Positions 2,072 to 58,260 of a DNA stretch of 64,000 nucleotides are shown one piece after another. The first letter of the stretch is position 1, and every line of letters starts with the position of its first letter. This DNA is from Antedon bifida. Taxonomy: Eukaryota; Echinodermata; Crinoidea; Comatulida; Antedonidae. The position numbers and the translations under genes were made by a program. The stretch spans positions 11,295,501-11,359,500 of the forward strand of contig OY727093.1 in assembly GCA_963402885.1 (NCBI GenBank). Direction: 5' to 3'. The notes beneath the pieces were generated by a model. The model made no database searches. It had not been told where the DNA came from and saw only the letters and a program-made list of their open reading frames with translations.

Positions 2072-3044
2072 ATCGATCAGTCACGAGATAGACCGGCCCT
2101 AATCATTCCTGTAACCAGATCTCATTTTTTACGGAACTTACTGGCCAATTTTCAGCCAATGTGCCTCAGAGGAAGTAGGCGCGCCTATTGGTGGTGCCAT
2201 GACCGATCCGCCGCCGTAAGATAATATTTTAATGGTTTCCTTTGCTTTTACAACGGTCACCAACATTATTATTTAATTAATGTTAAGTTAACTAAGATAT
2301 TAGCTTTGATAAAATAATATTTCTAAAAACAATAAAACTATCATGTTATTTCCTCATATTTACTACACACGTTCTCTCGGCCGGCAGCGTCCGCGGGTTC
2401 TTCGTATAAAACACCTAACCATATTCGTGCCGTCCTATGAGTTTTTCATCATAAAAGAATGCCTTGCTGAAATTCCACAGAATATAATTACGACATAGGT
2501 CAGCCATATCGGATGTAGCCTCCCATTATTGTTTCCGCGTACTGTATTTATATTCTTCCTGGCTGTATCATGGAAGGTTATCAATCTTTCATAAGCAGGT
2601 TTTGCCAGCAAGAGTTACCGGAATAAATTGGCTCTAACCGGTATTAACATTTTTTTTAATGCACCTTGTAAAACATTCAGTATAGTTCTAGTTGTAAAAA
2701 AAACCACATTTAGTAGGCCTACTTAGAGTTTTGTTTGTAGGCCAGACTTGCAATTAAAGTCGGAATGGTTTGGATCGAAAATTGCAGTTAACAACACACA
2801 CAATTTAGATGTTTAACGACATCACCTGGACTCGGTTTCGCTTAATTTTCCGGAATTGATCCATACTGGGAGAACACAAACAAAATGTTCAAATGGTTTT
2901 GCCGACAAAGAAATGTACAAAACATATTCAATGAAAATCCAATACACTTTAAATGTAATAACCTATTTATGAAATTGTCAATACAGTATTCATTGTATAA
3001 GAGCCAAGAGCCCGACTGAAAATCAGAAGCCACTCTTTAAAGTA

Positions 3045-3150: not shown

Positions 3151-4947
3151 TGCTACAAATTCTAGTTAAATACAGAAGAAATGGAGGGCGTTTAAAAGGC
3201 ATTTGCCTTAATCATGAGCCCGAAGATTCAAGTAAGATTCAAGTAAGAAGAATCTTAATGTATCGGGATCATTCCAAAAGATGATGAACATGATAAGAGG
3301 TTTTGTTCGAAAAACTCTAGTACAACTGAAGAGGAAATACATTTAATATTAAAGTCTCTTTTAAAAAGAACACCCAAAAATATACTGTAAATGGGCATTA
3401 AAGAAACTTTAGTCATTTTAAAGCCTGTCGGTTTTTATGCCTACAACAAAAAAGTTAAGGCGGAAATACCAAGACAATTTCATAACCACGTGTTCGAGAA
3501 CAAAAGATCTCAGATATTTAGTCACTAATTTGTTTAAAACATGTTTGGTTAATTCATTATTTTTCTCGAATAATACCTTACTAATGTATACATTTTCACT
3601 ACACAGGTTTTGTTTTTAAGATAATTTGGAACGGTCGATGTTATTCAACTCAATGAATACGGTACTGGCCTTTTGTATATATATAGCATAATTTGCGTCT
3701 CCAACATGGCCGACAATTTAAGTTCATTTAGAAAATACAAACACCACGATTTACTTACCGAAAATTATAGTCAAATACACAACACAAGTTAATTTGTAGT
3801 TTTTAGCAAATATTATTAACAATTTAGGCGCGGCAAACTGAATGTTATCTCGTAAGCAACGACTTCTCCTTCCGTATGTCAGGTTTTAGAACAACGCGAT
3901 TGCTTTTCACGGTCAAGACCAACCCCAACCAAGAGCATAGCGAACTCATGCATTATTCATTAAGCCTTATTACGTAGGCGAAAGGAAAATGCCAATATTG
4001 TTATGCACCAGTAGAATCTTTCAGATCGTAATAAGTGATGAAGCATGTTTGGTGGTATGGTGTGCTTTTATTGTCATCAGCAGTATTGATTCATACCAAA
4101 CAATACATCGACAAAACCGTTATGATTGATGACCAGAAGGGATAGCAACAATATCGTCTCCTGACAAATAATGTTAAAAATTAAAAGATTTGGTTGTTTT
4201 GTGTACATAAATAGTTTAGTAGGCGCTACATATTTGGTTATTAAAAATACACTTGGTATAGTTAAAACAGAATCTGGCAAGTTCGTTATTAAATAAACAT
4301 TTCCATGTAGCCTAATCATTGCGCAACATGCATAATTACAAATCAATATCGTGTATTTCAGTAATTATCCCATTTTGTTCCGATAATTAGATAACGTTTT
4401 CGGAACATCCGTACGCTAACAAACCCGTTTTTAAAAAGAAAAACAAAAACGAGCTTTCCTAAATAATACTATGTGGTGAATATTATAATAATTCTTTATT
4501 TTCTGTATCGGTTGGTAATGATGCATGAATTATCAAGCCTACTAATTTGGCCATGAACCCATGACATTTGTGATTTGTTGCGGTAGTAATTAATTTAGTT
4601 GTTTATTCAGGGCTATTCATTTTATGAGATGACATGTAAAAAATTTCCATTACATCATTCTGATAATGTTCTGATACGTGAAATGAATTTCAAATAGACA
4701 GAGTTCGATTCTCGGCGACACGAATTGTTTTCGCTCTCTCGGCGGCAAATTTTTAATCCTTATAATGAAAGTTTCACATTAGTATATTAAAGTATCACTG
4801 CCGGTTTATTTGGAGGTTTATTTTTTTTCTTCAAACTGACAAATTCGGGATTAAATTGACAAGCAGGGCCGTTCACATTTCAAAACCATAAAATCATTTT
4901 GGAGCAACAAAAGGTAAAAGACAATTTGAGCCTGGGAAAGACGTAGG

Positions 4948-5545
4948 CCTGTGATTCTTTAAAAAAACCAAAAGTGTGATGCTCAGATTTATTTTAAATC
5001 GGATAGTTGGATTGAGATTTAATCCAAATCCAGCTTAGCAGCAGGACCCCCTGGCAGGACAACAGTAATAATATAAGTTGTTATTGAACAACATTTAAAT
5101 CGCGATCTAACATTATTATTATCGGATAAATTTGAACATTATTCGGGATTTAGTATCCGAACCGTTCTTCTTCCAATGTCACATGCGACGGATTGTCAGA
5201 ATGCGATTTATATCCGAATTATAATTCTGGTCCTGTGATTCTTTCAAAAAAACAAAAGTGTGATGCTCAGATTTATTTTAAATCGGATAGTTGGATTGAG
5301 ATTTAATCCAAATCCAGTTTAGCAGCAGGACCAGGGAGGTATACATCCCTGGCAGAACAATATTAATAAATATTATATTATTATATAAGTTGTTATTGAA
5401 CAACATTTGAATCGCGATCTAACATTATTATTATCGGATAACAATTTGAACATTATTTCGGGATAGTATCCGAACCGTTGTTCTTCCAATTCCACATGCG
5501 ACGAATTGTCAGAATGCGATTAATATCCGAATTATAATTCTGGTC
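4948..5545. repeat. Tandem duplication of a ~300-bp block
   Basis: Copy 1 is 4948-5231 and copy 2 is 5232-5545. Both start CCTGTGATTCTTT and end AATTATAATTCTGGT. They differ by substitutions and by a ~30-bp insertion in copy 2 around 5335-5385. The block is non-coding and joins head to tail without spacer, so it arose as a local duplication. Confidence 0.9.
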
Positions 5546-8500
5546 CATTTCGGAAAAAACTGGAAAGTGAGTTCACCCCAATTGATAACCATATTTTATT
5601 ATTGTTACATCCATCTATCAGTAAAGGTTAAACATTGGATTTTTATCTCTTTCGTCACAGTTTGTCATATTCATTACAGCGGATGGCATGTTTGCTCGAT
5701 TTCTGCCAAATTACAATATGGTGTTTGATTGATTTGATTTAGTATTGGGTTGCTATCTATTTTGTAGGACTATTATTATTATTATTCATCGGAGTAGGGT
5801 ATTGTTGTACTTGTTTTCTTGGCAGAAATACATAAAAACATATAGAAAACAATTAAAACAACATGAATATATTAACTCATTTATTATTATGTATTCTGAA
5901 ACCATCATCTTTCATGACCTACCAAATATGTTTTTTTGGAAAAATTATTTTCAATAACGAAGAATGATCCCTATAATTTGCCACGTGACGAATTCAAACC
6001 TACTGTACAGTATTATCAAATATTATCGTGTTTATGACATGGTAAATGAACGCATTTCAACAAGGGGTTTTTACAAAACTTCGTTTCGGAAGTTATACAG
6101 AAAATAGATTATCCGTTCATTTCCTCCTTTTAATTCATAAAGGTCGTGGAACCTATGTAAACACAGTTGGATTTTTTTCGATTTTGTATAAGGATTTTGA
6201 ATACTAACTACAGTATTTCTGAAATCCACCTGGTGTGTATACATAATAAAAAGATTTATAACATTGCTGTACATTAGTGACATTTTAAAGGGACCATGTT
6301 CAATGTTTGAAAGCTTCGGCAAATTCGTATGGGCATATATTGCCTTTTTCTCGGGCTTCTTCTGCTCTGGATCATTTATTTGGAATCTGGGAACAAGCAC
6401 TTTACTTAGTAGAACAAAAGGAACAAAAACTGGTGAAATTTAAACCCTGGAGGTGGAATAGTTTTGTTGTGGTTTGGCGTTTCTTCCGGGAGAGAATTTG
6501 AAATTTGCTTTTCGCAATATAGAAATTTATATCCCTTGCACACAGTGTATCCTGATCGTATTTGACCTTTTTGCAACCAAGAACACATGAGTAAGTTTAG
6601 CCAACATTGTTGTTTGATTGCCTTGAACATGAGGCGCGAATGAAACGATTAAATGAATAGTACCTGTATACATTCGTTTCGTTTAAAAACCCCACGTTTC
6701 TTGATGCCACAGCAGGAAGGTAAAGAAGAATTATATTGCGCAATATTTAATACAACACGATCAATAAAAATGTCTCCACTTAATCAATTCAGAATCCATT
6801 GATTTCCCATCACCAAGCGATTTAACAAACAATACTTAATTATACAAAACAAATACCATACTATTAAATACAATGATTATTTAAGTATAAATGATAAATT
6901 AAGTAGTATATGTAATAAAGGTCATCGAGATTAATTCCATGGTCAGGTAAAAACATTAACAATGACCATTGGAAACGTAATGCCGCAAGCGTATTGAACA
7001 AATGGCCTTTACACGACTGACCGGAAAAAATCTGTAAAAATCAATAAAAAATGTCTCCGAGTTCAACCTACACGTGAGTAGGTCGTGTGTGTTTGTTCTC
7101 ATCTGTAGTGTGTGAACAAAATTCCACACGTTATTGTTCGCAAGTGTCTTGTAGTGTGACGTCATACAAACGGAACAATGTGACAAAAGGAAAACCCCGC
7201 GAAAATATATACGGAATGTAGAAATTCTTTAAGCAATGTTTAAGTCATAAATATCTTCATTGGAAACATGTTTTATAGTATACAGAGTAGTAGCAGACAG
7301 TCACGGGGATATAGTGAGAATTAAATATATTATAGACGAAAACGAAGACTATATATCGGCAGCATAAGCTTTTATAAGAAATTACTATAACAAGGAATTG
7401 TACTTAATAGTAAAATACGATGCGTTGATGGAAAAGTAATCCGTACAACGATTTTACAATAACTGTTACCACACACGTATAGAAACCATAAACACTGCTG
7501 GCCACCGCCCAAAAGTGTTAACCATCAACAACATTCTTTTAACAAAAGATTTTATTTCCTAATTTACTTTAATAACAATAAAAGTACAGGTACATACTAT
7601 ATATATAATAGTATCTTTTTAAGATAGAGCAATAACGAATTGGTATAAAGTATTATATAATAAACTACAAGAATATATATCGGTTTAACACTAAAAGTAA
7701 ATAACAATACGTACTTCTGAGAAAGCGAAAAGCAGTTTAAGCATGATCATAACCAAAAACAAGTTTGGTAAACAAATGAATTCTTATAAAAGGAAAAAAT
7801 ACGAACCTTTTTATTATGGTATTGTATTAGCTTTCAATAAATCTCCTTTTTCACAAGACCAGGCGGTGCTGCTTACGCGATGGGTTTTTTTCAGTTATGG
7901 CGATGGAAAAGAATTTGCTCCTATTTTTTCTCTGTTCACGAATGGACAGCTTTCATTACCCAGTCATAGAAGAGGTCAAATGAATATTCATAGAAATCTG
8001 ATTGACACGCTTTCGTGATGCATGATGGTTGTCACGGTGAAATAGGCATACCGAGTGAAATGTTTTCCCCACGCTTCATCGATTTTGACTTCGTCAGGAA
8101 TGTTTCTATGGCTACAAAAGCTTTTTTAAATAATCGATCCATGCCATGGAGAAAATAATTAGTAAATCTAGTTCGATATTGTATTTTTTAAATATCATTA
8201 TTTGGTACCATAGTATCAGAAGCAATTAAATGTTTCCACACTAATTATTATTACCAAAAAAGAAAAGAACTCAACAACCAGTCCAAACTACGACTGATCG
8301 GTATTGACCACGCCCAACAACACAGAACAGAATATGAACGTCACGCCCAAATTGACAATTCGTTTTTTAATGAAAGTAAAAATCTTGTGAATCCATTATT
8401 TGGGGGCAATGATCCGGTTGCTGCGATTGAATTGTTAGTCTTTAATAGTTTCAACTTAAGTTTATAAGGAAATGTACAATAACATTTAGTTTTGATTTCT

Positions 8501-9206: not shown

Positions 9207-10082
9207 TTATAGAAATATTTCAGATGGCCAGAATTCATCATCCATGTATGATACATTATTTTCTTCTTCTTCTTCCTTTTCTTGATTTTTAACTTGCTCT
9301 TCCCAATGGTTTTCAAGAAGTTTATATACGTCCAGTGCTGCCCTAGCATCTGTAACTGAACAGTGCTCTCCCCCCTGAATGTCCCGGCCTAGCAAGCACC
9401 TGGCTAGACACCGTAACGAAGGTGTACATGAACTTTGACCCATGTTTGTGAACTCCTTCAGTAGTCCATACTCGGCTGTATCCCTTATACGATGTTGAGA
9501 GTGTCGTAATTTAAGTACGGCAAAGTCGTGATGAAGACTGTGTCCAACAATAATGCTTCCATTAAGAACGTCCTTCACTTCCGTCTGAACTTGATTGAAG
9601 CAAGGCGCCCCCGCAAGATCTTTCTCACGAATGCCGCTCCATTTAGTCCTATAATCCGTAACAGGATTTGACGGTTTAACATACTTGTCATATATAACAT
9701 CACCTTTATAGTTAACAATACTGCATCTAGCTAGTGTGCTGACACACCCTTTAATACCTGTGCCAACCATCTCACAGTCCAATGCTACTATGTCATCTTG
9801 GTGCTCATTTAACAGATAATTGTTTGCATCATAGCTTTTAATGTGCCTCTTCATAAACTCTGTAAAGACTGGATATTTGTTTAAGTCATTCTTATTTGTG
9901 CAGATTTGATGATTTGCATTGTTTTTCTTTACTTTTTTTTGTTTTTCTTTCCATTTTAGTAATCGTTGAATTCTTCTAGGAAGTAATTTTGAACTATTCG
10001 TCTTTGATTTTTTAGCTAAATGTTCATAGTGAGCTCGGTTTGACCTTTTAATAGAGGCCTTAGTATTCTGGAGTTCATTCAT
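9207..10082 (-). CDS. AEN: DEDDh 3'-5' exonuclease, AEN/ISG20L2 family
   Basis: A 291-residue protein encoded in one exon. Residues 1-60 are lysine/arginine-rich, typical of the nucleolar targeting tails of this family. The exonuclease domain spans about 97-265. Exo I has LDCEMVGTG (D102, E104), Exo II VGHSLHHDF (D186), and Exo III HCSVTDA (H240, D245), so all five DEDDh residues are present. The family includes apoptosis-enhancing nuclease, ISG20L2 (5.8S rRNA maturation) and REXO4. The acidic tail followed by SYMDDEFWPSE resembles the YMEDQYWPDD end of vertebrate AEN, which tips the call to AEN, but an ISG20L2-like rRNA-processing role is equally possible. A splice acceptor (TTTTCAG) lies at 10114-10115, so the coding exon starts at 10113 and a non-coding 5' exon lies upstream. 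A short out-of-frame upstream ATG at 10110 opens 11 codons and stops on top of the main start, which could damp translation. Confidence 0.85.
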   Translation of the reverse strand: MNELQNTKASIKRSNRAHYEHLAKKSKTNSSKLLPRRIQRLLKWKEKQKKVKKNNANHQICTNKNDLNKYPVFTEFMKRHIKSYDANNYLLNEHQDDIVALDCEMVGTGIKGCVSTLARCSIVNYKGDVIYDKYVKPSNPVTDYRTKWSGIREKDLAGAPCFNQVQTEVKDVLNGSIIVGHSLHHDFAVLKLRHSQHRIRDTAEYGLLKEFTNMGQSSCTPSLRCLARCLLGRDIQGGEHCSVTDARAALDVYKLLENHWEEQVKNQEKEEEEENNVSYMDDEFWPSEIFL

Positions 10083-11377
10083 TTTGGAACAATGTTCTGA
10101 TGAAAATCATGATCTGAAAAAATAAAAAAGTTAAATTGTTAGTTTATATTAAATAGAATAATCACCAATTTACTCCAATAATTAAAATTGTATATTATCA
10201 ATTATTGCTGTTTTCTATTTTAATGATAATTAATATTTGATAAATTATAAAAATACAAGATAAATTCATAACAATAAATTTGTGAAGAGCAGAATAGAGA
10301 TAGTCTTTTCTGAACAAATAATAATTAAAAAAAACCAACTCATAAAAATATTTCATTGTTAATATATTGAAATTACTTAGCTATAAAAGGAAAACGACAA
10401 CAATGAAAAATAACAATCGGGCTTTGCAGCAGGTCAATAGGAAACGTGTATACAGTGATGGAAAAATACAGAATATCCAATTATAATGATTCATAAACTG
10501 CAGAGAAGGCAAGCAATACTGTGTCTTTTAATAGTTTACTATAGGTTATACTTTATATGCTGGTAGTACTGTATAATTAATTTAAGTTAATAGAACTAGG
10601 AGGATAATTTCAAAATTCTAATCATATAATTTACCAAGACAATAATTTTCATTAATTATTAACAAGTTAAAGTGTAGTATCATAATAAATACAGGTACTG
10701 TACTTTAATCATAGAGAAAATATCTATATATATATTTCCTCCATGGTACAATATATACATAGTTAGCTGCATCATGTTTGTAATTTAAACTTGTGATGGA
10801 ACTTTAGGCATTATTTATAACAATTATTATTTAGTGCAGAAGAAATGAAAACATTTCTAATTTGCTGATGTGAAAATAGCTATTAAATAGACAGTGTATA
10901 ACCTCAAAAATATGCCCATTTAAAACACTCTTGAGTGGGCTTCGTTTTGGGATGGACTGATTTCAAGATTAAATATTGCAATGCAAAGCTGGGGCTTCTT
11001 TTCAAGAGTTTACAGTATACATCTTTTTACTAAAAACAAATATTTGATTTCACTGAATTTAGGCAATAAGGAATGTTAGTTTATTAAAATCTCATTTTAA
11101 TTTAATATATATAAATATAACTTTTTGTTTTGTTTTTACGCTGTTATTTATTTGTTTTTCTCATTTGTTCATTTGGTTGTGCAACTATAACTAATACTGT
11201 ATATCAATATATCAATTACTGTATATCAAATATATCAAAAATATCTCAATTTGTATCTGCATGGTTCACATTGCTTTTTTCTTATATTATATCTGTAAGT
11301 TTATGTAATGTAATTAGCAATTTTATAATGCATTATTTAAAAAAAATTTTTATTATTAATTAGGCCTATAATTATAA

Positions 11378-28892: not shown

Positions 28893-29594
28893 TGTGATAG
28901 GTTTTTAACGTCTATTTTACTAATCTATAAAATATGTGGCATAAGGCCCTGGCTAAAATAATTGAGTATAAAAAAGGATTGTAACATGTGCTTTTAAAAT
29001 TACCGCTTTAACAACTATGAAAGGTCAAGCGTTCTATTCTTATTGGTTAATTGTTCTACAGGCGCAGGGCGCGCACGCTGTGCGCATATCCACAGAAGGA
29101 CAAAATCGCCGCATATAATTATAATGAAAATATTTAAGCCGTTTTATATATTACCTAATAATAAGATAATTTTTTTGTAGTTCTCTCGCGTCTTGTGGAC
29201 GCGATGTGGTGATGACATTTCTCATTATAATAAAATTGCCTTTTATAGTATACAATAAGCAAAAACCATTGGATCTTGATGAATTTACCGCATCAGCTTA
29301 TGAATATATACACAATATTATGTATTCCAAATTGTGTATTTTTTTAGCTGTACACAAACCAGGAAGTTGTTCCTGCACTAACAGTTGAGAAGAAAAAGGA
29401 CAATAAGCACAGGTACGGTATGCCCTATACACACAAGAAGCGTAACGTTGGTGGACTTGTCTCCTAAACACAAAATCTCATTAAAAATATTTCAACAAAA
29501 ATAAAGTGAATGGTACAATAACAATATAAGGTGAAATAAATTCTCCGAATTTAATTTTAAAAAAAAAATCATTAAAAAAAAATTGACATTGTAA
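28893..29594. other. DCST2 upstream region
   Basis: This is the presumed DCST2 promoter and 5' UTR area, bounded by the tRNA-Thr gene. The part 29060-29100 is locally GC-rich (GCGCAGGGCGCGCACG and its neighbour). No coding exon or repeat is recognised. Confidence 0.5.
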
Positions 29595-29665
29595 GGCCCG
29601 AGAGGGATTTGAACCCTCGATCTTCTGTTTACGAGACAGACGCCTTGCCACTTGGCCATCGAGCC
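29595..29665 (-). tRNA. tRNA-Thr (anticodon CGT)
   Basis: Read on the minus strand the 71-nt sequence folds into a complete cloverleaf. The acceptor stem is GGCTCGA with TCGGGCC (one G-U pair). The D arm has GCC/GGC with the AAGTGGCAA loop. The anticodon stem is TCTGT/ACAGA with loop CTCGTAA, giving anticodon CGT. The T arm is GAGGG TTCAAAT CCCTC. A-box (TGGCCAAGTGG) and B-box (GGTTCAAATCC) promoters are intact, so it should be transcribed by RNA polymerase III. A T-run terminator follows downstream (29565-29585 on the plus strand is A-rich/T-rich in the right sense). Confidence 0.95.
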
Positions 29666-44023: not shown

Positions 44024-45352
44024 CTAATTTATGATGTTATAATAATAATCGCTAACTTCATTTTCAGACAAAACTTTATTATAAAACTTGACTTCATCAA
44101 TCAATCCAACAAACCAACGTTGATTACGTACGTCTGAGCCTCCAATGCAGACTGTTCTGTTAAGTGGTGGAATCGGACCTGAGCAGCTACCAGAGTGAGC
44201 CACTATTTGTCCATTTAGGTATAAAAATACCGCGCTTCCATTGTATGTCATAACTACGTGATACCATTCATCGTGCGTTGAGTTGACAAAAATGGTGTCA
44301 TCTTTATTCATAGAAAATAGTTTTGCTCTGAGTCTTTCGGGTTTTGACCCATGACCAATCATTATTTCAAATGTGCTAATTTTATGTCCACCATTATTCA
44401 ATATGTACGCTCTGTAACATGAATTGTCGTATTTGTACCAGGCACTAACGGAAAAATCTGCTCCAAAATTAAAATTACGAAAGGCCTCTATTAAGAGCGT
44501 ATGTGAACCTGTAAACGCACCAGCACTACCTTTCACTCCATCTGCGTAAGTAAAGTTGTTCCCAGTTACGGTGCCGTGGCGTGCGTTTCCTGAAACATCG
44601 TATACGTTTCCTTCAAAGGCATAGTATGCCAACAAATAGTCACTTCTTTCAGAATCATTAGTTACTACTACGGTGCTTACAGATGTTAAACGCTCATCGA
44701 CGCCTGACGTCACAGTTGTATTATCGTCGACGTCTGGTGTTACAGATGTCATACGCACGCCAGCGCCTGACGTCAAAGATGTGTTATCGTCGACGTCTGG
44801 TGTTACAGATGTCATACGAACGCCAACGCCTGACGTCAAAGATGTGTTATCGTAGACGTCCGGTATTACAGATATCAAACGCACGTCGACGCCTGACGGC
44901 AAATATGTGTTATCGTCGACGTCTGGTGTTACAGATGTCATACGCATGTCGACGCCAGACGTCAAAGATGTATTCTCGTCGACGTCTGGTGTTACAGATG
45001 CCATACGCACGCCGACACTTGACGTCAAAGATGTGTTATCGTCGACGTCTGGTGTTACAGATGCCATACGCACGCCGACGCCTGACGTCAAAGATGTGTT
45101 CCTGCCTACGTCAGATGCTACACTCACAGACGGCGATCCTTTTGTATAATATTTTGTATCAAATGTTCGCGGTTTATCTGCGAGTTCCGTTAGTTTCCAA
45201 AAGTTTGGATAACTAATGCATTTTCTTCCGCTAACAAGTACTTTTACACAAGCAGGCATACCGTCTATTGTCAATAGCACTTGGTCGTGTCGACAACTAG
45301 GTATACTTTTAACAGTCAAACACAGCAAGAGAACTAATATTAACTGAAGCAT
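44024..45352 (-). CDS. Secreted LamG-like (concanavalin A-fold) protein with tandem repeats
   Basis: A 442-residue protein. The start chosen is the ATG at 45352 because MLQLILVLLLCLTVKSIPSC is a good signal peptide. An acceptor (TTTTCCAG) just before it and a donor (CAACG then GTGAGT at about 45471) show that the longer upstream frame is intronic. Residues ~18-75 form a cysteine-containing N-terminal region. Residues ~95-235 are seven to eight copies of a 21-residue Thr/Ser/Val/Asp repeat (SLTSGVGVRMTSVTPDVDDN), a coding minisatellite. Residues ~245-440 form one LamG/Laminin_G_3 jellyroll: LLAYYAFEGNVYDVSGNARH, SVSAWYKYD, WYHVVMTYNG, VFLYLNGQIV and GLIDEVKFYNKVLSENEV. Such domains bind carbohydrate or protein ligands outside the cell. 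The particular family member is not recognised; the stalk-like repeat may be O-glycosylated (inference). Confidence 0.85.
   Translation of the reverse strand: MLQLILVLLLCLTVKSIPSCRHDQVLLTIDGMPACVKVLVSGRKCISYPNFWKLTELADKPRTFDTKYYTKGSPSVSVASDVGRNTSLTSGVGVRMASVTPDVDDNTSLTSSVGVRMASVTPDVDENTSLTSGVDMRMTSVTPDVDDNTYLPSGVDVRLISVIPDVYDNTSLTSGVGVRMTSVTPDVDDNTSLTSGAGVRMTSVTPDVDDNTTVTSGVDERLTSVSTVVVTNDSERSDYLLAYYAFEGNVYDVSGNARHGTVTGNNFTYADGVKGSAGAFTGSHTLLIEAFRNFNFGADFSVSAWYKYDNSCYRAYILNNGGHKISTFEIMIGHGSKPERLRAKLFSMNKDDTIFVNSTHDEWYHVVMTYNGSAVFLYLNGQIVAHSGSCSGPIPPLNRTVCIGGSDVRNQRWFVGLIDEVKFYNKVLSENEVSDYYYNIIN
44690..45115 (-). repeat. Coding minisatellite, 63-bp unit, ~7 copies
   Basis: Each unit encodes 21 residues of the stalk in the LamG protein. 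Copies are highly similar at the DNA level, so the array has been homogenised or expanded recently. Length is a multiple of three, keeping frame. Long frames on the opposite strand are shadows of it. Confidence 0.9.
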
Positions 45353-45475
45353 ACTCTGGAAAACAAATGAATTTAAAATATGATTAGCTTGTATATATGT
45401 AGAAATATATGGGAATAATATTGAATTAAAGGGAGGGTAAAGATATTGGTGGAATTGTCGTGTTTTAAAACTCAC

Positions 45476-46899
45476 CGTTGCAAAATTAGTGGTTGCAAGA
45501 GTACCTACAAAAAGATGAATTCAATCTGAACAGCATTTTGCAGTAAAATAATACAATAGTCTTCGTAACATATCGTTTCGTGAACAGGCCAATATAGAAA
45601 TTCGTTTGATTTGCATTACCACTAACAATACCTATCTACTCAACAATACATGTGGCGCTATGTATGTATTCATTCATTCATTCATGCAATCTTTTATTTC
45701 GGAAACTCTGGTCCATAGAAAGTAAATTACATATAAATGAAATAAATAAAATAAACAAAATTACTACTACTCATCTCAGGATGGCATTCCATCTGGAGAG
45801 CATCTTCGACTTAACTAAGACGTTGCTTATAATCGTTGAGATTAAAATATTTTGCTTGCATTAAGTCTACACATCAGGCCATATATTGATATTCTTAACA
45901 ATTCATAAAAAGAGACTTAAAATCAAAATGTGCTTATTTTTCGAGAAATTTTATATTGTGCGCTTATGATTACATTTGTCGCTTCTTAATCAACTTGATT
46001 AAAGTAATAATATAAGAAGAAAGAAAGAAATTCCTGTACTATAATAGTACTGGAATTTTCAAAAAATGTCCAAATGGTTACTATATCTTAATGTGTTCTG
46101 CGCATGTGTTACCTTAATATTATTTGAAAAGGCCGATATTTTGGCAATTTCAGAAAAATTCAGTGATTTTTACGGAAAATTGTCAAATTTCGACCCTTTT
46201 ATTTTTTGACATAACTAGTTACTATTATCATAATCTGACATGCGCAGACGCACACAATGCGTTCTGTGCATGTTACCTCTACGTTTAAAAAAAGTACAGG
46301 GATATTTACGGAGAATTACCAAATTTCGACTCTTTTATTTCATAATATAATCTGAAATGTGCAAAGTCACATAATAGAGAGGTTTCGCAACGCTACGAAT
46401 ACGATAACGAAAACGAATACGTCACGCACATGTATTCGTTTTCGTAAGCCTGCAAAAATCGAGGGCGCCGTCGATCCAAAAAAAAAAAATGTGACTGCGG
46501 TAAATTCGAAGCGCAGCAGGTACGTGTTGCTTGGCTGCCTAGGCCTAGCGTAACATCAAAGCGAGTGAGCACTTTAAAAACTGCTATTTATCAAAATCGA
46601 CTTGTTATTTTAGTAAATTACTTTTAGTAAATTACTTTCAATAAATCTATAATTATATTATAATCATGAATCATTTCTGATTCAAATGCAAAATGTGGAA
46701 AATAATCAAAAACTATACTCGTTTTGTAGTTACGAATATGACTGGTGATATTCGTCAACACAAATACGCTTTACGAATATGAAATGGGGATCAGCTCAAA
46801 AGTTTCATAAATGTATGACGTATCCGTTTTCGTTATCGTATTCGTAGCGTTGCGAAACCTCCCTAATGTGTTATGCGCATTTTACCAAAATACGTTTGA
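45476..46899. other. Upstream region of LamG gene
   Basis: Presumed promoter and 5' UTR of the LamG gene, then repeat-rich DNA. The only defined element is the inverted-repeat transposon at 46376-46864. Early degenerate traces of the satellite below (for example TACTATAATAGTACTGG near 46037) appear. No gene is seen. Confidence 0.5.
46376..46864. mobile_element. Inverted-repeat MITE, 489 bp
   Basis: Ends AGAGAGGTTTCGCAACGC and its inverted copy (GCGTTGCGAAACCTCCCT) extend inward through CTACGAATACGATAACG, about 45 bp per arm. AAT flanks both ends (a possible 3-bp target duplication). A further ACGAATATGA segment repeats inside. No transposase is encoded. Confidence 0.7.
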
Positions 46900-48282
46900 A
46901 AAGGTCAATATTTATCAATTTTTCGAAATTTTGCAAAAGTCACCCAAATTTCGAGCTTTTTCAAATTAATATGCAATAACGTTGCTATAATGTGCACGTG
47001 TAGTACCATATCATCATCTTATAGTGTCATGGGACTACTTTATGTCGAAAAATAAAGAGGTAAAAATTGGTCATTCGTCGAGAAAATCCCTGTACTAGTA
47101 ACAGGGATTTTTTTTTAAAATCATCAATTTTGTTACCCTTTTCAAATCCAATTATTATGTACTAATATTGCTATGTGCACGTATGTGCCATATCATCATC
47201 TTATAGTGTCATGGGACCACTTTATGTCGAAAAATAAAGAGGTAAAAATTTGTCATTTTTCGAGAAAATCCCCCTGTACTATAGTACATGGATTTTTTAA
47301 AAAATCATCAAATTTTCGACCTTTTTAAAATCCAATTATTATGCACTGATATTGCTATATGTGCACGTATAGTGCCATATCATCATCTTATAGTGTCATG
47401 GGACCACTTTATGTCGAAAAACAAAGAGGTAAACATTTTGTCATTTTTCGAGAAAATCCCTTGCAAAATCACCCAAATTTGACCTTTTTCAAATCTAGTT
47501 AAAATGGTCAAAATTTAGTCATTTTTCGAGAAAATCCCTGTACTATAGTACAGGGATTTTTTGCAAAATCACCCAAATTTGACCTTTTTCAAATCTAGTT
47601 AATATGTACTGATATTGCTATATGTGCACGTATAGTGCCATATCATCATCTTATAGTGTCATGGGACCACTTTATGTCGAAAAACAAAAAGGTAAAAATT
47701 TGGTCATTTTTTTCGAGAAAATCCCTGTACTATAGTACAGGGATTTTTTTGAAAAATCACCTAAATTTCGACCTTTTTAAAATCCAATTATGCACTAATA
47801 TTACTATATGTGAGCGTATAGTGCCATATCATCATCTTATAGTGTCATGGGACCACTTTATGTCGAAAAACAAAAAGGTAAAAATTTGGTCATTTTTCGA
47901 GAAAATCCCTGTACTATAGTACAGGGATTTTTTTTGAAAAATCACCTAAATTTCGACCTTTTTCAAATCTAGTTAATATGCATTAATATTAATATATGTG
48001 AACGTATAGTGCCATATCATCATCTTATGGGACCACTTTATGTCGAAAATGAAAAAGTCAAAATTTGGTCATTTTTCGAGAAAGTCCCTGTACTATAGAA
48101 CAGGGATTTTTTGCAAAATCATCAAAACTACGACCTTTTTAAAATCCAATTATTATGCACTAATATTGCTATATGTGCACGTATAGTGCCATATCATCAT
48201 CTTATAGTGTCATGGACCACTTTATGTCGAAAAACAAAAAGGTAAAAATTTGGTCATTTTCGAGAAAATCTCTATACTATAT
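46900..48282. repeat. ~185-bp palindrome-centred satellite, left block
   Basis: Units run ATAGTGCCATATCATCATC, then TTTATGTCGAAAAACAAA, then TTTTTCGAGAAAATCCC and the palindrome CCCTGTACTATAGTACAGGG. Palindrome centres near 47100, 47283, 47547, 47732, 47918 and 48098 give periods of about 180-186 bp (one truncated unit at ~47460-47540). The block is interrupted at 48283 by the foldback element and resumes at 51356. Open frames in it are repeat-derived. Confidence 0.9.
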
Positions 48283-51200
48283 AGTCAGGGTCCTCGTGTA
48301 TTTCCGTAGGATTTTAATGCCCAAAGTGAGATTTCACTTGATTTCACTTTATTATGGTGCTAGGATACCAAAAATGCTAGGTAACAAATTTTCACGATCC
48401 CGTAACCATGGTAACAGCCCCAATTTCAAAATGGCGACCAAATGGCCATATCTCCATAACTCTTTGGTCTTTCGACAAGATATTGGTATCAAAATACTCG
48501 GAATATATATATTTATATTCGTTGTAATAGAACATTTTTACTAAATGCAACCGGAAATGCTATTTTTCTGTACTATTGACCCTTGACCTTGACTTGTACT
48601 GTATCTTAAAAACGGCTGGTCATATAAATTCAAAAATGGTCTCAAATTGCTCAGACCTTATATATTTATATTTATTGTAATGCAATATTTTGTTAAAAAA
48701 TGTCCGGAAGCAAAGTTATTGACCTTTGACATAAAGAATAGCTTGCAAGGATTTTTATTCAGTAGTCTCTGGTCATATCTCCATAACCCTTTGGTCTATT
48801 GACAAGATATTGGTATCAAAATACTCGGAATAAATATATTTATATTCGTTGTAATAGAACATTTTTACTAAATATAACCGGAAATGCTATTTTTCTGCAC
48901 TATTGACCCTTGACCTTGACTCGCACTGTATCTAAAAACGGCTGATTATAGAAATTTAAAAATGGTCTGAAATTGCTCAGACCATACATATTTATATTTA
49001 TTTTAATGCAACATTTTGTTAGAAAATGACCGGAAGTAAAGTTATTGACCTTTGACCTAATAAACATGAACTTTATGTATAAGCATTTATCTATTGAGCA
49101 TGTATCGGCAATGTGGTAGGAGATTAAAAATGAGTTTATACATTATTATTATCATTCGAATATTTAATTTCTAATTCACATATTTAGTTTTTATATATAT
49201 TAGTATATACTTTATAGTGTAAGTAAACACATTTATCTATGTAAACAACTTTGGACAATAGTTAAAATTTAAGCAGAAATTCATTGCACTGTAGTAATTT
49301 TTCTCCCATCCACTTCACTAAAATGACGTAGTCAAATTGATTCTTCCTGCACTTTTCCTGAAATGTTAATTGCTATACTTTTTACATTTTTCCTGATAAG
49401 AAACTGGAGCTCCAAAATTGGATTAAAACATCTTTAATTACATCAATACCATGCATTTTTTGTGTCAGCAATCACTCAATGAGTGAGAGTGGTTGATCTT
49501 CAACTTTTGTACCTTTAATGCATTTTCATATATGGAGGTTTCTTATACATTGAACAGCTGCCGGCCATACATTATTACGTAGTTATAGACGTTCCTTGGT
49601 TTTCTTCCTAGATGTTTCGAGATATGAGAAGCAATCTTTCAATGCTAACATTGACTGCCATTTTGTGAGTCATATCGCCAAGCCAAGGAATCTATTTAAT
49701 GAGTGAGATTGTTAGAAGTGACCAAGAGGTTTTTGATGTTTACAGCATTTTATGATTTTATCTCCCTCCTTTAAGCTACTAAATGTTTTCAGGTAGTCCA
49801 CAACCAGACTTTACTCACAAATTTCAAAAAGCTTCAACTCCTATTTTTTTTATTATCTCTGTTTAAGATATATTTCTTGACTTCTTTTGAAATTATTACT
49901 AAGACAATGTTAAAAAAAGTGTTATTATTTGTTATGAATGTATTTTGATGAACTCTTGATGGATTTGTGTGTTTTGTGTTGAAGAGTGAGTTCGATGTGA
50001 TATCTAGTTCGATTTCCTCATCTTAAGTAGTGCCAACAAGACCACCAACCCATTTTAACTGTTTTCCTTCTGTATTTAAATACATTTTTTTTTCTTTACA
50101 TTCAAATGAATTACAATCTTTTATTCACTGTTATTGGGTCATCTACATCAAGCCAAGCTGTTTCATTTGTGTTAGATGGCAATGTATCAGAGACGAGCAT
50201 ATAAATGAAAACCAGTTATGGGCAAAACAAATCTGCAAGATACCTTCCTAATAAAATAGGTTATAATTACCATCAAATCTCATTCTGACATTTACTACTT
50301 TTAGCCAAATCAGAAATCTTCAATTAATACGTTTAGAGGTTCAAAGTGGCAATTGAAAACAATATTTGAAAATGCGAGTTTAGAAAAGAACTGAATAATA
50401 ATAATAATTATCCTAAGTGAACGCCAGGCTAGTGATCTGGAGGTTGTTGGAGTCCCACATTACTAGTATTAATTATTATTCTTAGTAAAAGTGAAAATTA
50501 CGTCAGAGTAGGGCAAAAAAATCTGACCAATATTTATCCATCCTTGTAATGTAAAAGCTATTCTCTATGTCAATGGTGAATAACTTTACTGCCGGTCATT
50601 TTCTTACAAAATATTGCATTACAATAAATAAAAATATGTATGGTCTGAGCAATTTGAGACCATTTTAAAATTTCCATGACCAGCCGTTTTTTAGATACAG
50701 TGCGGGTCAAGGTCAAGGGTCACTAGTAAAGAAAAATAGCATTTCCGGTTACATTTAGTCAAAATGGTCTGTTAGAACAAATATAAATATATTTATTCCG
50801 AGTATTTTGATACCAATATCTTGTCAATAGACCAAAGGGTTATGGAGATATGACCAGAGACTACTGAATAAAAATCCTTGTAAGCTATATATATATGTCA
50901 AAGGTCAATAACTTTGCTTCCGGACATTTTTTAACAAAATATTGCATTACAATAAATATAAATATATAAGGTCTGAGCAATTTGAGACCATTTTTAAATT
51001 TTTATGACCAGCAGTTTTTAAGATACAGTACAAGTCAAGGTCAAGGGTTAATAGTACAGAAAAATAGCATTTCCGGTTGCATTTAGTAAAAATGTTCTAT
51101 TACAACGAATATAAATATATATATTCCGAGTATTTTGACACCAATATCTTGTCGAAAGACCAAAGAGTTATGGAGATATGGCCATTTGGTCACCATTTTG

Positions 51201-52291: not shown

Positions 52292-55200
52292 TTAATACTG
52301 TTCTGCTGGTGATCGGATGTCATCGATTTTAAGAATCATTCTGACCAACTGTGTGGCTAACTGAATCTGTTGCTTTTTGCCTATTAGAGTCTCTATAACA
52401 TGTTGTTCCTTCATATCTGCAACCAAACAATAAGTAAGATATTATTATTATTATTATTATTATTGAATGCAAGAAACTGTTATATATATAAAATGAACCT
52501 AAATCTAAGAAAGTACAATGATATATTTACAAGTGTAGCACCATAATCAGTATGCATGGGCGCATGGTAGGCTGCCCGACAATGGTTCTTGGTGCTTTAA
52601 TCTTGCATGACATATGGTCTAAACACACATTAAATAGCATGATTAGAAATCCTGTTTGTCATGCAGTCTCCATGATTTTAAAAAATACCTGTAACTATGT
52701 ATAAATATTGAATGATGATAGTGTCTTACCATTGGTACCACTGTTGAGGCAATCAATACCTAAACGTGGGTTGTTCTCTTTCAGCTGTTTAGATTTCACC
52801 TCTGACAGAGTGCGAATTGGGTGCAGGCCGCTGTTCTCGGCAAGGGCCATTGGAATGCTTTCCAAAGCGTCTGCAAATGCTCTCATTGCATACTGTTCAA
52901 TGCTGGATATCTAAAAAGAATATCAAAATTTGTGCTTACATGTGTATCAATCAATATTACTACTATTAACACTGTCTTACATACTAAATACAGTTCCTAA
53001 GATGAGTATCTGTTCAAGTGTAGCACCATAATCAGTATGCAGGGCGCATGATATGCTGCCCGACAATGGTTCTTGGTGCTTTAATCTTGCATGACATATG
53101 GTCTAAACACACATTAAATTGCATGATTAGAAATCCTGTTTGTCATGCCTACATATTTTCCAAATAGTATATTTCTTTAAAATGGTTTGTCTTTGTAAAT
53201 GTCCCCTTACATTGTCGGCTCTTTCGCTAACTGCTAGTGCACAAGCAATCTCCGCAGCTCCGCCACCATACACGATATGATTACTACGTACAAGGTTACG
53301 TGTAACACACAGAGCATCATGCAGCGCTCTTTTAGCTTCTTCTATAATCTGTAAGAAAATAGTACATTATTCATTATAAATTCAATTTGAATAAGAAACG
53401 AAATGTAAGATAATTATTTGCAGTAATGTTACAACCATATCAGTATGCAGGGTCTACGATATTAAGTTACCCGACAATGGTTCAGGTTGTTAATTGCTTT
53501 AGCATGAACTCTAGCCTGAAAAGTTACAAATTAACCAATCAGGAATTCCGATAGTCATGCAGATTTAATGTAAAACAAAAAAATGATCTCACCATTCTGT
53601 TTCCTCCTCTGATGAAGATGGTAACAGCTTTAGTATTCGGACAGTCTTCTATGACAAGCATGTGGTCTTTAGTTGTGCCAAACGACAACTCTCTTACGGT
53701 GCCAGCTGTGCCAAGCTTCTCTGCCGTTAACTCTTGGAATCTGGGTACGATCCTTCCACCGGTTGCAATGGCAATTAACTGTAATTAATATTTATACAAG
53801 TGAACAAATATATTCATACAATTACGTATTGAAACAAGAAAAATCAGAGTTGTAACTATTATTACAGTCATATCAGTATGCAGGGCCTATGATAAATGAC
53901 CCGACAATGGTTCAGACTGTTGGTTGCTTTAGCATGAACTCTAGCCTGAAAAGTTATAGATTAACCAATCAGGAATTCCGATAGCCATGCGGAATCTTGA
54001 TTTACCTTTGTAATAAACTGGAGACATGTAAATTTTACACATATCAAAGTTTATGTGACAACAAAATGTGATGTGCCCATATATGGACACGATGATGTCT
54101 TATTTACTACCATATTTGGGCAAAATTTTTTTTTTATAGTGTAGACAGAGCTTTACACTGGGCCAGTGCTATTACGACAACAATATTTTGGTATCACTAA
54201 TTACCTCAATCTCTGGTCCTCCAACCCATCGTACAGCAGGTAGTTCATTCTGTAACAGTAAATGATTGGCTTCATCATCAAATCCCCATTGACAAATTGC
54301 TAGGTTAGCTCCAGTGTCCTTCACTTGTTTGATCATCTCTGTAAACTTCTCTTTCTCGTAAGCCTGTAGCTTTTTGTAGTCTTCAACAGACTTGATGTCC
54401 AGTTTGTGCGTCGTCTTTGGTTTCGGTGGCTCAAAAGGACACGTCAAAATGGCCATCTTTGCATCCTTGATTTCCTAAAGTGAAAAGCCATGCAAAGTTT
54501 TAATTGAATTTAATTTTTAATATTTTCAGTCATAATTCCACTGGATTGATTAATATTCAAGGCACTTCTTGATGTAGCACCATAATCAGTATGCAGGGCG
54601 CATGGTAGGCTGCCCGACAATGGTTCTTGGTGCTTTAATCTTGCATGACATATGGTCTAAACACACATTAAATAGCATTCTTAGAAATCCTGTTTGTCAT
54701 GCCCAATAAATATAGCTTAATAACAGGTGTCTAAACAACATGAAATGAGGTATGTCTTACTTTTGGCATCTGTGGGTGGCTGAAATCTTTATCAACTACT
54801 ACTCCCTTCACCAACATTGTGTCTTCCAGTTTTCCTCCTACTTTGCCATCAACCTTGATCAGTTCAAAATCAACATCTTTTCTTTCAAAGTCTGCGACAG
54901 ACATGATTGCTTTTACAGCAATTTCTGCCATCTGCTTATGACAACGATTGATACTGTAGGACAGGGACAGAATATACTTTAAAGTGAATAATGTATTTAC
55001 TTTGATTTAAACAACATTACACAATGAATTGTTAAAAGTGTAGCACCATAATCAGTATGCATGGGCGCATGGTAGGCTGCCCGACAATGGTTCTTGGTGC
55101 TTTAATCTTGCATGACATATGGTCTAAACACACATTTTATAGCATGATTAGAAATCCTGTTTGTCATGCACTTCAAGTAAATCTATTAATGGACTACACT

Positions 55201-56910
55201 AGAACCCTAGTAAACAAAACGTCCCCTCAATAGGGGTGTCACTTAAATATAGGTTCTACTATATAATTATTAAGACTCCCATACTTACATTTTAGACCCT
55301 AGTGTTGTCATCGCCACTTTCACTAGTGGTTCTATGTTATCCTTACTAACTTCAAAGCTTTCAGCTATCTTGTCCAGCCTGGCACTGGCAATTTGAGATG
55401 CTAATTCGTAACCATCTGCGATGCGAATTGGGTGAATGCCACGATCTAAAAGTTGCTCAGCTTGTTCAAGTAAAGATCCAGCCAACACTTTAAACATTAG
55501 ATAACAAATACTTGTTAATTGGAAAATATTAACAAAAATAATGGTAAAAATAGATGGTGGTGAAATTGAGAATATGTGAGTTTATCGTTTTTCTTTGTAA
55601 ATAAAATCATCATCCTCACCTACAACTCCTGTTGTGCCATCACCAATTTCATCATCTTGTGATTTGGAAAGTTCCACCATCAACTTTGCTATTTGATGCT
55701 GTACATCCATTTGTCCAAGAATAGTGGCACCATCGTTTGTGACTGTTACATCACCATCAGGACTGACTATTAATTTGTCCAAACCTAGATATTAAGAGAA
55801 AATACCTGATAATAACCTCTGGTAAAAAGTAATTTATACTGTAGAAGAAATTTGCTTAATTAATTAACAATGAAAATATTTATTATCAATCAGATCAACT
55901 TCTTTCTATTGTTCTCACCATTTGGTCCGAGTGATGTTTTTAAAGTGTTTGCTACAGCTTTTGCTGCCATGATATGCGACTGAAAAAAACAAAGAGAAAA
56001 TTAATCAAGCATAACATTATTTAGTGCACAGCTGATATACTGTGTAGCTGCCTATGTATGTGGTCAAACCATATCGTTTAAAAGTAGAACAGTAAAATAC
56101 AAGTGCAATATTTAATTGATATTAAGTTAACATTGAATTCAATAGCTCTCTCGTGAATCCCCTTCATATCTCTCTGACCTTCTTCCTCTTCACATACCTT
56201 CCCGTCTCCTTTCCATTCCGACTTTTAACACAACGTATGGCTTAATTAAGGAAGTTAAGCACCTTCACTTCTGCTTCCTCTCGCTTATGGAATAACCTAC
56301 CTGCCTCTCTACTAGATCATGTTGATGGTCGTCTACTTTCATCTTTAAATCTGCCTTGAAAACTCATCTTTTTCTTTCAGATTGAGCTCTCTCATACCTT
56401 TTTGATCACTTACTGCTGGAATTGGCGCGTTACAAATTCGTACTAGGCCTATTATTATTATTAATAGGCCTACCCTAGGCCCTAGCTAGCCTTTCTTCTC
56501 CATCTACTCTAGGCCTCTTGAGCCTGGATTAGCCTTTTTAGCCTAACTAAAAGCCTTTAGCCTAATTAATAGGTATTACTATAGGCCTACCCTACCCTAG
56601 CCAGCAGTGTAGTGAGTATCTATCTAGGCTAGCCTATCTTTTTAATAAGGTAGCCCTAGCCTACTCATAATTAGCCATTAGTCTACTCCGAATTTTGTTA
56701 TAACAAATAAACAATTGCTGGCCTAGGCATGGCCCATATCATTAGCTCCTACATTAGCCTAGATCACCAGTCATGACTGCAGCCCATATAGCCGTTAGCT
56801 ACCTTGTGTGCATCAATTCCAGATAGTCGTGTCTTGGATTCTTGATCTCTGATGATAATAAACGGTCTGCCATATTCATCAAATGCCAGTGAACCCATAG
56901 ATCCACTCAT
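52292..56910 (-). CDS. CCT5: CCT5, T-complex protein 1 subunit epsilon
   Basis: Ten coding exons read leftwards: 56910-56803, 55979-55919, 55784-55620, 55487-55289, 54953-54761, 54474-54205, 53778-53593, 53348-53211, 52910-52730, 52416-52292. All are GT-AG and phase-consistent, giving 541 residues, the same length as human CCT5. It starts [20 protein letters not shown]. Group II chaperonin motifs are intact: [19 protein letters not shown] (catalytic aspartate in GDGTT), [16 protein letters not shown], the epsilon-specific [17 protein letters not shown] and [26 protein letters not shown] and [11 protein letters not shown]. It is one of eight subunits of the cytosolic TRiC ring folding actin, tubulin and other proteins. 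Six of its nine introns host H/ACA snoRNAs, so it is also a snoRNA host gene. It is head to head with the SPMIP11-like gene; TTCTAGAA, a heat-shock-factor-type half-site pair, lies at 57001-57008. Confidence 0.98.
52531..52665 (-). ncRNA. H/ACA snoRNA, type A (CCT5 intron 9)
   Basis: The 5' hairpin closes GCATGACA with TGTCATGC. The H box AGATTA (ANANNA) follows. The 3' hairpin closes AGCACCA with TGGTGCT, and ACA (52536-52534) is three nt from the predicted 3' end. The 3' pocket strands GAACCAT and CTGAT fit 18S rRNA. The 3' end is about 115 nt before the splice acceptor. Confidence 0.88.
53016..53148 (-). ncRNA. H/ACA snoRNA, type A (CCT5 intron 8)
   Basis: Nearly identical to the intron 9 copy, with the same stems, H box AGATTA and ACA box (53021-53019). 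It lies about 105 nt before the acceptor. It lacks one G in the terminal loop region (TGCAGGGCGCATGA in plus sense), away from the pocket. Confidence 0.88.
53424..53560 (-). ncRNA. H/ACA snoRNA, type B (CCT5 intron 7)
   Basis: The 5' hairpin (closing GCATGA/TCATGC) has a sequence unrelated to type A. The H box is AAAGCA. The 3' hairpin closes ACAACC with GGTTGT and has upper stem GGGT/ACCC, changed in both strands relative to type A. The pocket GAACCAT...CTGAT is conserved. ACA is at 53429-53427. Confidence 0.87.
53857..53990 (-). ncRNA. H/ACA snoRNA, type B with AUA box (CCT5 intron 6)
   Basis: Like the intron 7 copy, but the 3' hairpin base is ACAGTC with GACTGT, a two-strand compensatory change. 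The H box AAAGCA and the pocket are kept. The box at the ACA position reads ATA (53862-53860), a tolerated but less common variant, so processing efficiency could differ. Confidence 0.82.
54042..54152. mobile_element. Harbinger-like MITE, 5'-degenerate
   Basis: The right end TATAGTGTAGACAGAGCT is followed by TTA. The interior has TGATGTGCCCATATATGGAC. It lies in CCT5 intron 6, between the splice donor side and the snoRNA. Confidence 0.7.
54570..54702 (-). ncRNA. H/ACA snoRNA, type A (CCT5 intron 5)
   Basis: Type A stems, H box AGATTA and ACA (54575-54573). One change in the 5' hairpin apex (AGAATGC in place of ATCATGC) leaves the closing stem and pocket intact. It lies about 95 nt upstream of the acceptor. 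Confidence 0.87.
55036..55169 (-). ncRNA. H/ACA snoRNA, type A (CCT5 intron 4)
   Basis: Type A copy with intact H box, ACA (55041-55039) and 18S-complementary pocket. It lies about 82 nt upstream of the acceptor and is the first snoRNA in transcript order. A short pogo-like fragment (55199-55260) lies just upstream of it. Confidence 0.88.
56120..56465 (+). mobile_element. 5'-truncated CR1/L2-type retrotransposon 3' end
   Basis: Conceptual translation includes [19 protein letters not shown] and, after a frameshift, [10 protein letters not shown], the C-terminal signature of CR1/L2 ORF2. It is followed by a tail GGCGCGTTACAAATTCG and (ATT)n. It is antisense within CCT5 intron 1 and cannot be active. 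Confidence 0.65.
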
Positions 56911-57414
56911 TTTGGTTTTAAATGTGTTAAATTCTTGAAAGAAATGAGAATAAAGCTATACGATTACAACGGATTTTATACTTCGTTCTTCTAAAATTCC
57001 TTCTAGAATCCTCCACACACACGACGACCGACCAACCCCATGCACTCGGTGCAGTTACGGGTCACTGGGTTTCTAGTTGAGATGGACATGCGTACAAAAT
57101 ATTTAAATACAGAACCTTGCTGGTAAAAAAAGTGATTATATCTTAATTTTTCTTTTACTTTTTCTTTTTAAGTAAATTTTAAAATTATTTTTATTGATTG
57201 TTTTATATACTAGGTGGTAAAAGTAATTGGGATAATTTTTAGATTAATGTTGGTGATTAGAATTTTTTTTCAGACTGAATAGGTCATATAGAAGTTACCG
57301 TGGGAACCATAGACGCAATTAAATCACTTCCTGTTTCGATTTGTAAACAAACGCTGCATGCTGCAGAGAGCACACACAGCTTTTATTATCCAATTTCCTA
57401 CCTTTTCTCCGAAA
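56911..57414. promoter_or_regulatory. Bidirectional promoter region CCT5 / SPMIP11-like
   Basis: The two start codons are 504 bp apart on opposite strands. A near X-box (RFX-type) GTTACCGTGGGAAC at 57294-57307, about 110 bp before the SPMIP11 ATG, matches GTNRCC-N-RGYAAC at all but one position, as expected for a ciliary gene. TTCTAGAA at 57001-57008 resembles an HSF site on the CCT5 side. Both are motif matches only. Confidence 0.5.
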
Positions 57415-58260
57415 ATGTCTTTCTTCAATGTGACTGCTTTGGGCTACCAGGATCCTATTAGAGCTCAAGCTCTCAATCCTAATCCAGAATACTCGTACAG
57501 TCTCGTGCATAAAATCCCAGACAATTCATACGTATCGTTTAGGCCACCGACTTCGCGTTTACCACCAATCAACATGGATCAGCATAACAAAGTCGTCCAA
57601 CCTGGCGATTATTCAGAACACAAGGGGTCATACGTGGAATACACAAGACGGCTAACTAAGCATACAAGAACACAAAATGGTATGTATGGCCCGGGGGTAA
57701 GGGCCTATTATGCCTGGGTCTAGAATAGGTTATGAAGTAACACTAACAGAATAAAATGTTGTTTGTAATGTAAGTCTAGGCCTAGGCCTAGGCCTCTATT
57801 CAATATTCTATTCTGATTTTCCGTTTTACTTTTTTTTAGCACCAAATGATCTGTATAGAAATCCTTTAACATCTGCTCAAGGACATGGATGGTGGGATAA
57901 AAAAGACAACATAGAAAAACGAGAACCATGGACACACGTACCTCGACATCGGCATGTTAATAGTGAGATGACAAGGTAATTACTAGCCTAGACTAGTATT
58001 AATATTATTTATTATGCAACAAATGGTTTAAATAAATTCAATAATTATACAATAAATTAAAGCTATGAAATAACATTAACAATAGGCATAGTTTTTAACA
58101 AGTATGTAATGTAAGATTAAGTTGAATGTAAAGATACCTTTTTGAACATAGGCCCTAATAATAATTTGTCATGATAAATTTAAGTATAATTTTTGTCTGT
58201 CTTCTTTACAGCTTTGTGAATGAAATGGCGATTACCAACAGGGAATTTTCCTTATTTTGA
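57415..58260 (+). CDS. SPMIP11: SPMIP11/TEX49-like sperm microtubule inner protein
   Basis: Three exons (57415-57679, 57840-57975, 58212-58260), GT-AG and in phase, encode 149 residues, close to mammalian TEX49. It begins MSFFNVTALGYQDP, resembling the MAFFNLxxLGYQ start of TEX49, so the internal ATG at 57415 is preferred over the in-frame ATG at 57358. The C-terminal half (NPLTSAQGHGWWDKK, PWTHVPRHRHVNSEMTSF, TNREFSLF) follows the family pattern LTxAQxxxWW...PWxxxPRHxxxxSxMTxF...FSLY. Members bind inside doublet microtubules of sperm flagella. It has no transmembrane segment or enzyme motif. Recognition is from memory of the family and should be confirmed by alignment. Confidence 0.75.

Follow-up and report, generated by a model that had tools for sequence, protein, structure and literature searches.

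Each of introns 4-9 of the CCT5 gene of Antedon bifida carries one element with the layout of a box H/ACA RNA. The gene lies in a 64 kb stretch of genomic DNA, here called the window. From their sequences, the six elements are very probably intron-encoded H/ACA snoRNAs related to SNORA42/80 that would act as 18S rRNA guides, and that arose by duplication within the gene with divergence of the 5' guide. Their anatomy and placement, their covariation and their pairing with the organism's own 18S rRNA can all be read from the DNA and carry this interpretation.

The CCT5 gene and its six intronic elements

CCT5 (T-complex protein 1 subunit epsilon) occupies positions 52292-56910 of the window on the minus strand, with coding exons 1-10 and introns 1-9. 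Joining the 10 exons over GT..AG introns gives an open reading frame of 541 amino acids, which scores 970.6 bits against the CCT epsilon model TIGR02343 (cut-off 710.5). In a comparison with the PDB, 12 of the 13 best sequences are labelled CCT epsilon and the remaining one is labelled just 'T-complex protein 1 subunit'. Introns 1 to 9 are 823, 134, 132, 335, 286, 426, 244, 300 and 313 nt long, and the element-bearing introns are the last six.

The surroundings of CCT5 contain several other features. An open frame for an SPMIP11-like sperm microtubule inner protein (57313-57720, plus strand) lies head to head with CCT5, and a 328-base unit is present downstream of the gene in two head-to-tail copies (50555-51184). 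Repeats of 182-base and 186-base period form tandem arrays at 46964-47460 and 47501-48281, respectively; microRNA and other Rfam models match the second of these, every one below its own cut-off. Minus-strand open frames encode a Laminin_G_3 domain (44027-45520), which is underlain by a repeat of 63-base period at 44672-45100, and an RNase_T exonuclease domain (9207-10103). A tRNA gene is located at 29594-29665 on the minus strand, and a tRNA is the sole match to Rfam at gathering cut-offs in the whole 64 kb window.

The six elements are on the minus strand, in host sense, and fall into two types. A-type copies are found in intron 4 (55036-55169, 82 nt from the splice acceptor), intron 5 (54570-54702, 95 nt), intron 8 (53016-53148, 105 nt) and intron 9 (52531-52664, 114 nt). 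B-type copies are found in intron 6 (53857-53990, 78 nt) and intron 7 (53424-53560, 75 nt). An earlier note on this DNA had described one host-sense H/ACA-layout element of about 135 nt in each of these introns, 75-115 nt before the acceptor and in the transcript order A, A, B, B, A, A. The elements are real, with lengths of 133-137 nt and a measured spacing of 75-114 nt, and alignment of the copies gives the same order. Its reading of the boxes also holds: the ANANNA hinge is AGATTA in A copies and AAAGCA in B copies, and the tail reads ACA plus 3 nt in every copy but that of intron 6, which has AUA plus 3 nt.

A copies differ from one another at 2-8 of 133-134 positions, the two B copies differ at 18 of 137, and A and B copies are separated by 52-55 differences. 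Homology between elements ends at about the first base of the 5' stem and a few bases past box ACA; with the elements masked, the best mutual similarity among the introns is no better than E 0.015. Among the A copies, the outermost pair (introns 4 and 9) shows the fewest differences, 2, and has in common an extra A that is absent from introns 5 and 8, which gives the order of A copies a nested look.

When each copy is cut at the hinge, both halves fold as hairpins in all six cases. The 5' hairpin was not formed when the intron-6 B copy was folded whole with its flanks. Both hairpins covary in the RNAalifold consensus structure of the six copies, where standard pairs fill 94.7% of 208 cells, both-side changes occur at 10 of 35 base pairs and the covariation score is 0.316. 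Each of these values was reached by 0 of 500 shuffles, a lenient control because structure and alignment derive from these very copies, which in effect represent two or three lineages. Pairing falls to 25.5-48.0% when the partners are slid out of register. Further pair types are no more numerous than chance allows, their count being matched by 203 of 500 shuffles. Two both-side changes in the lower stem of the 3' hairpin distinguish the two B copies from each other. A hand-drawn structure (46% paired, no covariation) was out of register, and the RNAalifold consensus was used in its place.

Variation among the copies is unevenly placed. In the A copies there are 11 variable columns, 0 of 72 in the lower stems, pockets, hinge and boxes versus 11 of 62 elsewhere (p 0.00012), and for the B copies, with 18 variable columns, the corresponding counts are 6 of 72 and 12 of 65 (p 0.13); these p-values are descriptive and not a test, as the column classes were picked after viewing the alignment. 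Guide pockets hold none of the variable columns of either type (0/11 in A, 0/18 in B). This pattern bears on the possibility that some copies, above all the four A copies, are recent retrocopies or products of gene conversion, with one or two loci active and the rest passengers. Such a history would explain why the A copies have only 2-8 differences despite intron flanks that cannot be aligned, and copies with weaker features do exist, as in intron 6 with its AUA for ACA. Against it stand the position of all 11 A-variable columns outside the lower stems, pockets, hinge and boxes, in classes chosen post hoc, and the placement of every copy 75-114 nt from the acceptor. We consider this history less likely than not.

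Family relationships and predicted rRNA targets

All six copies align on the minus strand to the Rfam family RF00406 (SNORA42/80) over model positions 1-136. The B copies score highest (46.0 bits in intron 6, 42.1 bits in intron 7), followed by the A copies of introns 8 (28.2), 5 (26.8), 9 (26.6) and 4 (26.0). The curated cut-off of 70 bits is reached by none of the six (26.0-46.0 bits), so no CCT5 copy is an RF00406 member by the curated criterion, and the A matches are weak over the whole 64 kb window (E 0.07-0.26). B copies also match SNORA15 (RF00398), with 28.5 bits in intron 6 and 25.9 bits in intron 7 falling short of the cut-off of 47, and SNORA35, at 22.4 and 18.1 bits (cut-off 39). 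Judged by the look of the alignments, the match to SNORA15 is chiefly through the 5' half. The earlier note had proposed running H/ACA models on the six intervals; this gave full-length alignments in favour of the assignment and scores below the cut-off against it. Taken with the anatomy and the covariation, these sub-cut-off matches agree with its identification of the elements as H/ACA snoRNAs. The hallmark of scaRNAs is a CAB box, UGAG, in the hairpin loop; TGAG occurs in none of the six copies.

In H/ACA RNAs the arms of the pocket pair on either side of an unpaired UN, and the target U lies about 14-16 nt before box H or box ACA. Pocket pairing was examined on the organism's own 18S rRNA, which is complete (1804 nt, L014:2929-4732). 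The 3' pocket of all six copies pairs with AUCAG[UU]AUGGUUC, where U108 and U109 fit equally. Shuffled pockets equalled the real pairing in 1 of 400 cases for A, 3 of 400 for the B copy of intron 6 and 10 of 400 for that of intron 7. The B 5' pocket pairs with UCUGG[UU]AAUUCCGAUA at U1316, forming 10+5 pairs with one G-U, and for either copy 0 of 400 shuffles were as good. Target-to-box spacing, counted by eye, is 14 nt for the 3' pockets and for the B 5' pocket. We take U108 and U1316 to correspond to human 18S positions 109 and 1367, by comparison with a human 18S sequence, on which the pocket scan gives the same two sites.

Both human positions are reported as pseudouridines, 109 at 99% and 1367 at 98% (PMC6182160). 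SNORA42 is listed for human 18S-109 and 18S-572, and SNORA15, hosted by CCT6A, for 18S-1367 (PMC6466398). Human U1367 is also given as the counterpart of an Arabidopsis site without a known snoRNA (PMC8351944). Pairing on the organism's own 18S rRNA thus assigns to the six copies a common 3' guide and two different 5' guides. The description of the array as one guide family stands for the 3' guide; it does not extend to the 5' pockets, which differ between A and B, the latter pairing with a second known site.

The likeness to SNORA42/80 consists of the full-length alignment, the layout and the 3' guide site at 18S-109. Complementarity to the second SNORA42 target, 18S-572, is still 7 nt long in the left arm of the A 5' pocket but only 1 nt in the right arm, where the Rfam consensus pairs 4 nt. 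B copies differ from SNORA42/80 in the 5' guide, and the human host of SNORA42 is KHDC4, a gene other than that of the CCT5 elements. With SNORA15 the B copies have in common a 5' pocket that points to the same uridine, 18S-1367, and a host that encodes a chaperonin subunit (CCT6A in human), but their 3' half is SNORA42-like. The 5' hairpins of B and A can be aligned with each other, so a common origin of the B copies with SNORA15 is not demonstrated.

The 5' pocket of the A copies is identical in all four and has H/ACA pocket geometry. On the own 18S rRNA it has no significant site (27 of 400 shuffles were as good), and no target was found in the own 5.8S rRNA or in the first 436 nt of the own 28S rRNA. 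Against human U1, U2, U4, U5 and U6 nothing strong was obtained, the best score being 7.9 on U2. In a segment of human 28S, U4558 offered 6+4 pairs, but this candidate was rejected: the side pairing with the right arm is altered in the own 28S rRNA, and the site is not among the pseudouridine rows consulted in PMC6182160. In two further pieces of the organism's own sequence, none of the four best sites falls inside a stretch that Rfam names as 28S, and an 83-base match on contig C11 contains no Rfam rRNA. The own 28S rRNA was recovered in pieces that lack model positions 429-2389 of 3401, and the target of the A 5' pocket may lie in 28S. Three 85-base stretches on contig C7 (G000:C7 15726390, 12854646 and 16766079) are 87-88% identical to part of the 18S query; this contig is distinct from the two with long 18S matches.

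The elements might instead be intronic structures that regulate the splicing or expression of CCT5 and are not processed into guide RNAs. A single structure per intron through six introns in a row, with similar spacing from the acceptor, would suit such a role. A splicing role would not, however, lead one to expect the boxes, the family match or the pairing with two 18S sites known to be pseudouridines, and we regard this reading as highly unlikely.

As snoRNAs, the elements would follow the usual intronic route. The CCT5 pre-mRNA would be spliced and each intron debranched and trimmed to an RNA of 133-137 nt, which dyskerin, NHP2, NOP10 and GAR1 would protect, and each resulting particle would convert a uridine of 18S rRNA to pseudouridine. 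The six 3' hairpins are predicted to guide U108 (human 109) and the two B 5' hairpins U1316 (human 1367). For the CCT5 elements themselves, we infer expression, processing and modification from these sequence features.

Distribution in the genome and in other chaperonin genes

DNA searches of the 315.6 Mb genome found four A places with the intron-9 copy as query and two B places with the intron-7 copy, all in CCT5. Neither type was found elsewhere, so the elements are not a dispersed SINE; genome-wide dispersal was what the earlier note had named as evidence against its reading, and the copies are confined to CCT5. A repeat resembling an H/ACA RNA that landed six times in this gene would have left, like any inserted unit, sharp ends of homology and masked introns without similarity better than E 0.015, both of which are seen, but it is extremely improbable in view of this confinement, the host sense of all six copies with one per intron, the covariation and unchanged guide pockets, and flanks that share strings of only 4-7 nt, among which no target-site duplication stands out since strings of 7 nt or longer occur in 116 of 2000 random intron pairs.

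A model built from the six copies recovered these six in the 64 kb window plus one extra match at E 0.88, taken as noise. With RF00398, for which 50 of 52358 genomic candidates were scored, two sub-cut-off matches (28.6 and 23.1 bits) were found; they fold as long palindromes and were also taken as noise. These weak SNORA15 matches, at the centres of L016 and L017, lie on long, near-perfect palindromes like those of a miniature inverted-repeat element. With RF00406, for which 42 of 6188 candidates were scored, both B copies were recovered together with two weak matches of 22.6 and 20.5 bits, whose loci score 8.1 and 10.2 bits with the six-copy model. The two genome searches are not proof of absence, as few candidates were scored and the B copies were unlisted with RF00398 and the A copies with RF00406; more distant relatives of the elements may exist elsewhere in the genome.

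Sibling chaperonin genes were surveyed in seven stretches from six chaperonin-like places; those on C13, on C9 at 31.3 Mb, on C14 at 4.6 Mb and on C1 at 32.4 Mb were left out. No H/ACA family of Rfam reached E 1 in the seven stretches, and the six-copy model had a single match among them, of 10.3 bits (E 3.2). For the CCT6 stretch (L032), Rfam gave no match up to E 1 and the six-copy model none up to E 10. MicroRNA models match within the seven stretches, all below their cut-offs, and the C/D model snoZ118 matches in L038 at 28.9 bits (cut-off 48, E 0.4).

One of these genes contains an array of another kind. In L033 (G000:C14:5114001-5123500), identified as CCT4 by its two exon pieces, both of which match the delta model best, five intronic elements with C/D-like boxes and terminal stems lie in host sense at 2304-2397, 2943-3033, 4731-4824, 5082-5175 and 7669-7749. 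Two are copies of one kind and three of another. A CCT-like stretch lies between the two copies of the first kind (BLAST E 1.5e-6), and another, between the first two copies of the second kind, was recognised on visual inspection and has no support from BLAST. In two of the three second-kind copies the 11 nt before box D match the own 18S rRNA at 111-121, which would place a 2'-O-methyl group at U115, the equivalent of human Um116. The third copy of this kind and both copies of the first have no exact match of at least 8 nt to the own 18S rRNA. As Rfam names none of the five at E up to 1, their reading as C/D elements is based on boxes and pairing.

Origin and significance of the array

The CCT5 array is best read as an intragenic snoRNA duplication with guide divergence, an arrangement of a known type that requires only an ordinary mechanism. 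The RNA unit would have been copied several times from one intron of the gene to another, by an RNA-mediated route or by a DNA-mediated one with later decay of the flanks. During this process the A and B types would have come to differ in the 5' guide and kept the same 3' guide.

Chaperonin genes were already known as hosts of H/ACA RNAs, as the earlier note had stated. A table of chicken snoRNAs places ACA20 and ACA29 in TCP1 and ACA28 in CCT6A (PMC2653536), and the human host of SNORA15 is CCT6A (PMC6466398). The suggestion that the array is undescribed is borne out in part. Full-text searches and searches of the literature on multi-copy arrays returned no snoRNA array in CCT5, but arrangements of this kind are well described. 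Paralogous snoRNAs occupy neighbouring introns of one gene in chicken (PMC2653536) and in sponges (PMC3412847), and in Drosophila mfl one C/D snoRNA is present in four copies, one per intron (PMC1821038). These duplications in cis involve other host genes and other guides, whereas CCT5 holds six H/ACA copies with two guide types.

A larger example is SNHG14, which is a non-coding host. Like CCT5 it has many copies in consecutive introns, 29 of SNORD116 and 48 of SNORD115, but these belong to the C/D class and are described as without known target (PMC11608373). What sets the present array apart is its host gene, an unbroken series of six occupied introns, and a 5' guide that diverged as the 3' guide was retained.

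A broader reading, which we offer as speculation and consider unlikely, is that the CCT genes make up a set of hosts whose guides act on a single region of 18S rRNA, with the CCT5 array aimed at U108 and the C/D-type array of CCT4 at U115, 7 nt apart. Under it, guide dosage might be tuned by copy number, at six for U108 against two for U1316, and B-type RNAs might each join two guides that are separate RNAs in human.

The CCT5 array opens no new mechanism. It is a clean case of the multiplication of a guide RNA within one host gene, and it extends the chaperonin hosts of snoRNAs to CCT5 and, with weaker evidence, to CCT4 of this genome. The B type also points to a way in which a single RNA can combine guides that in human belong to separate RNAs.
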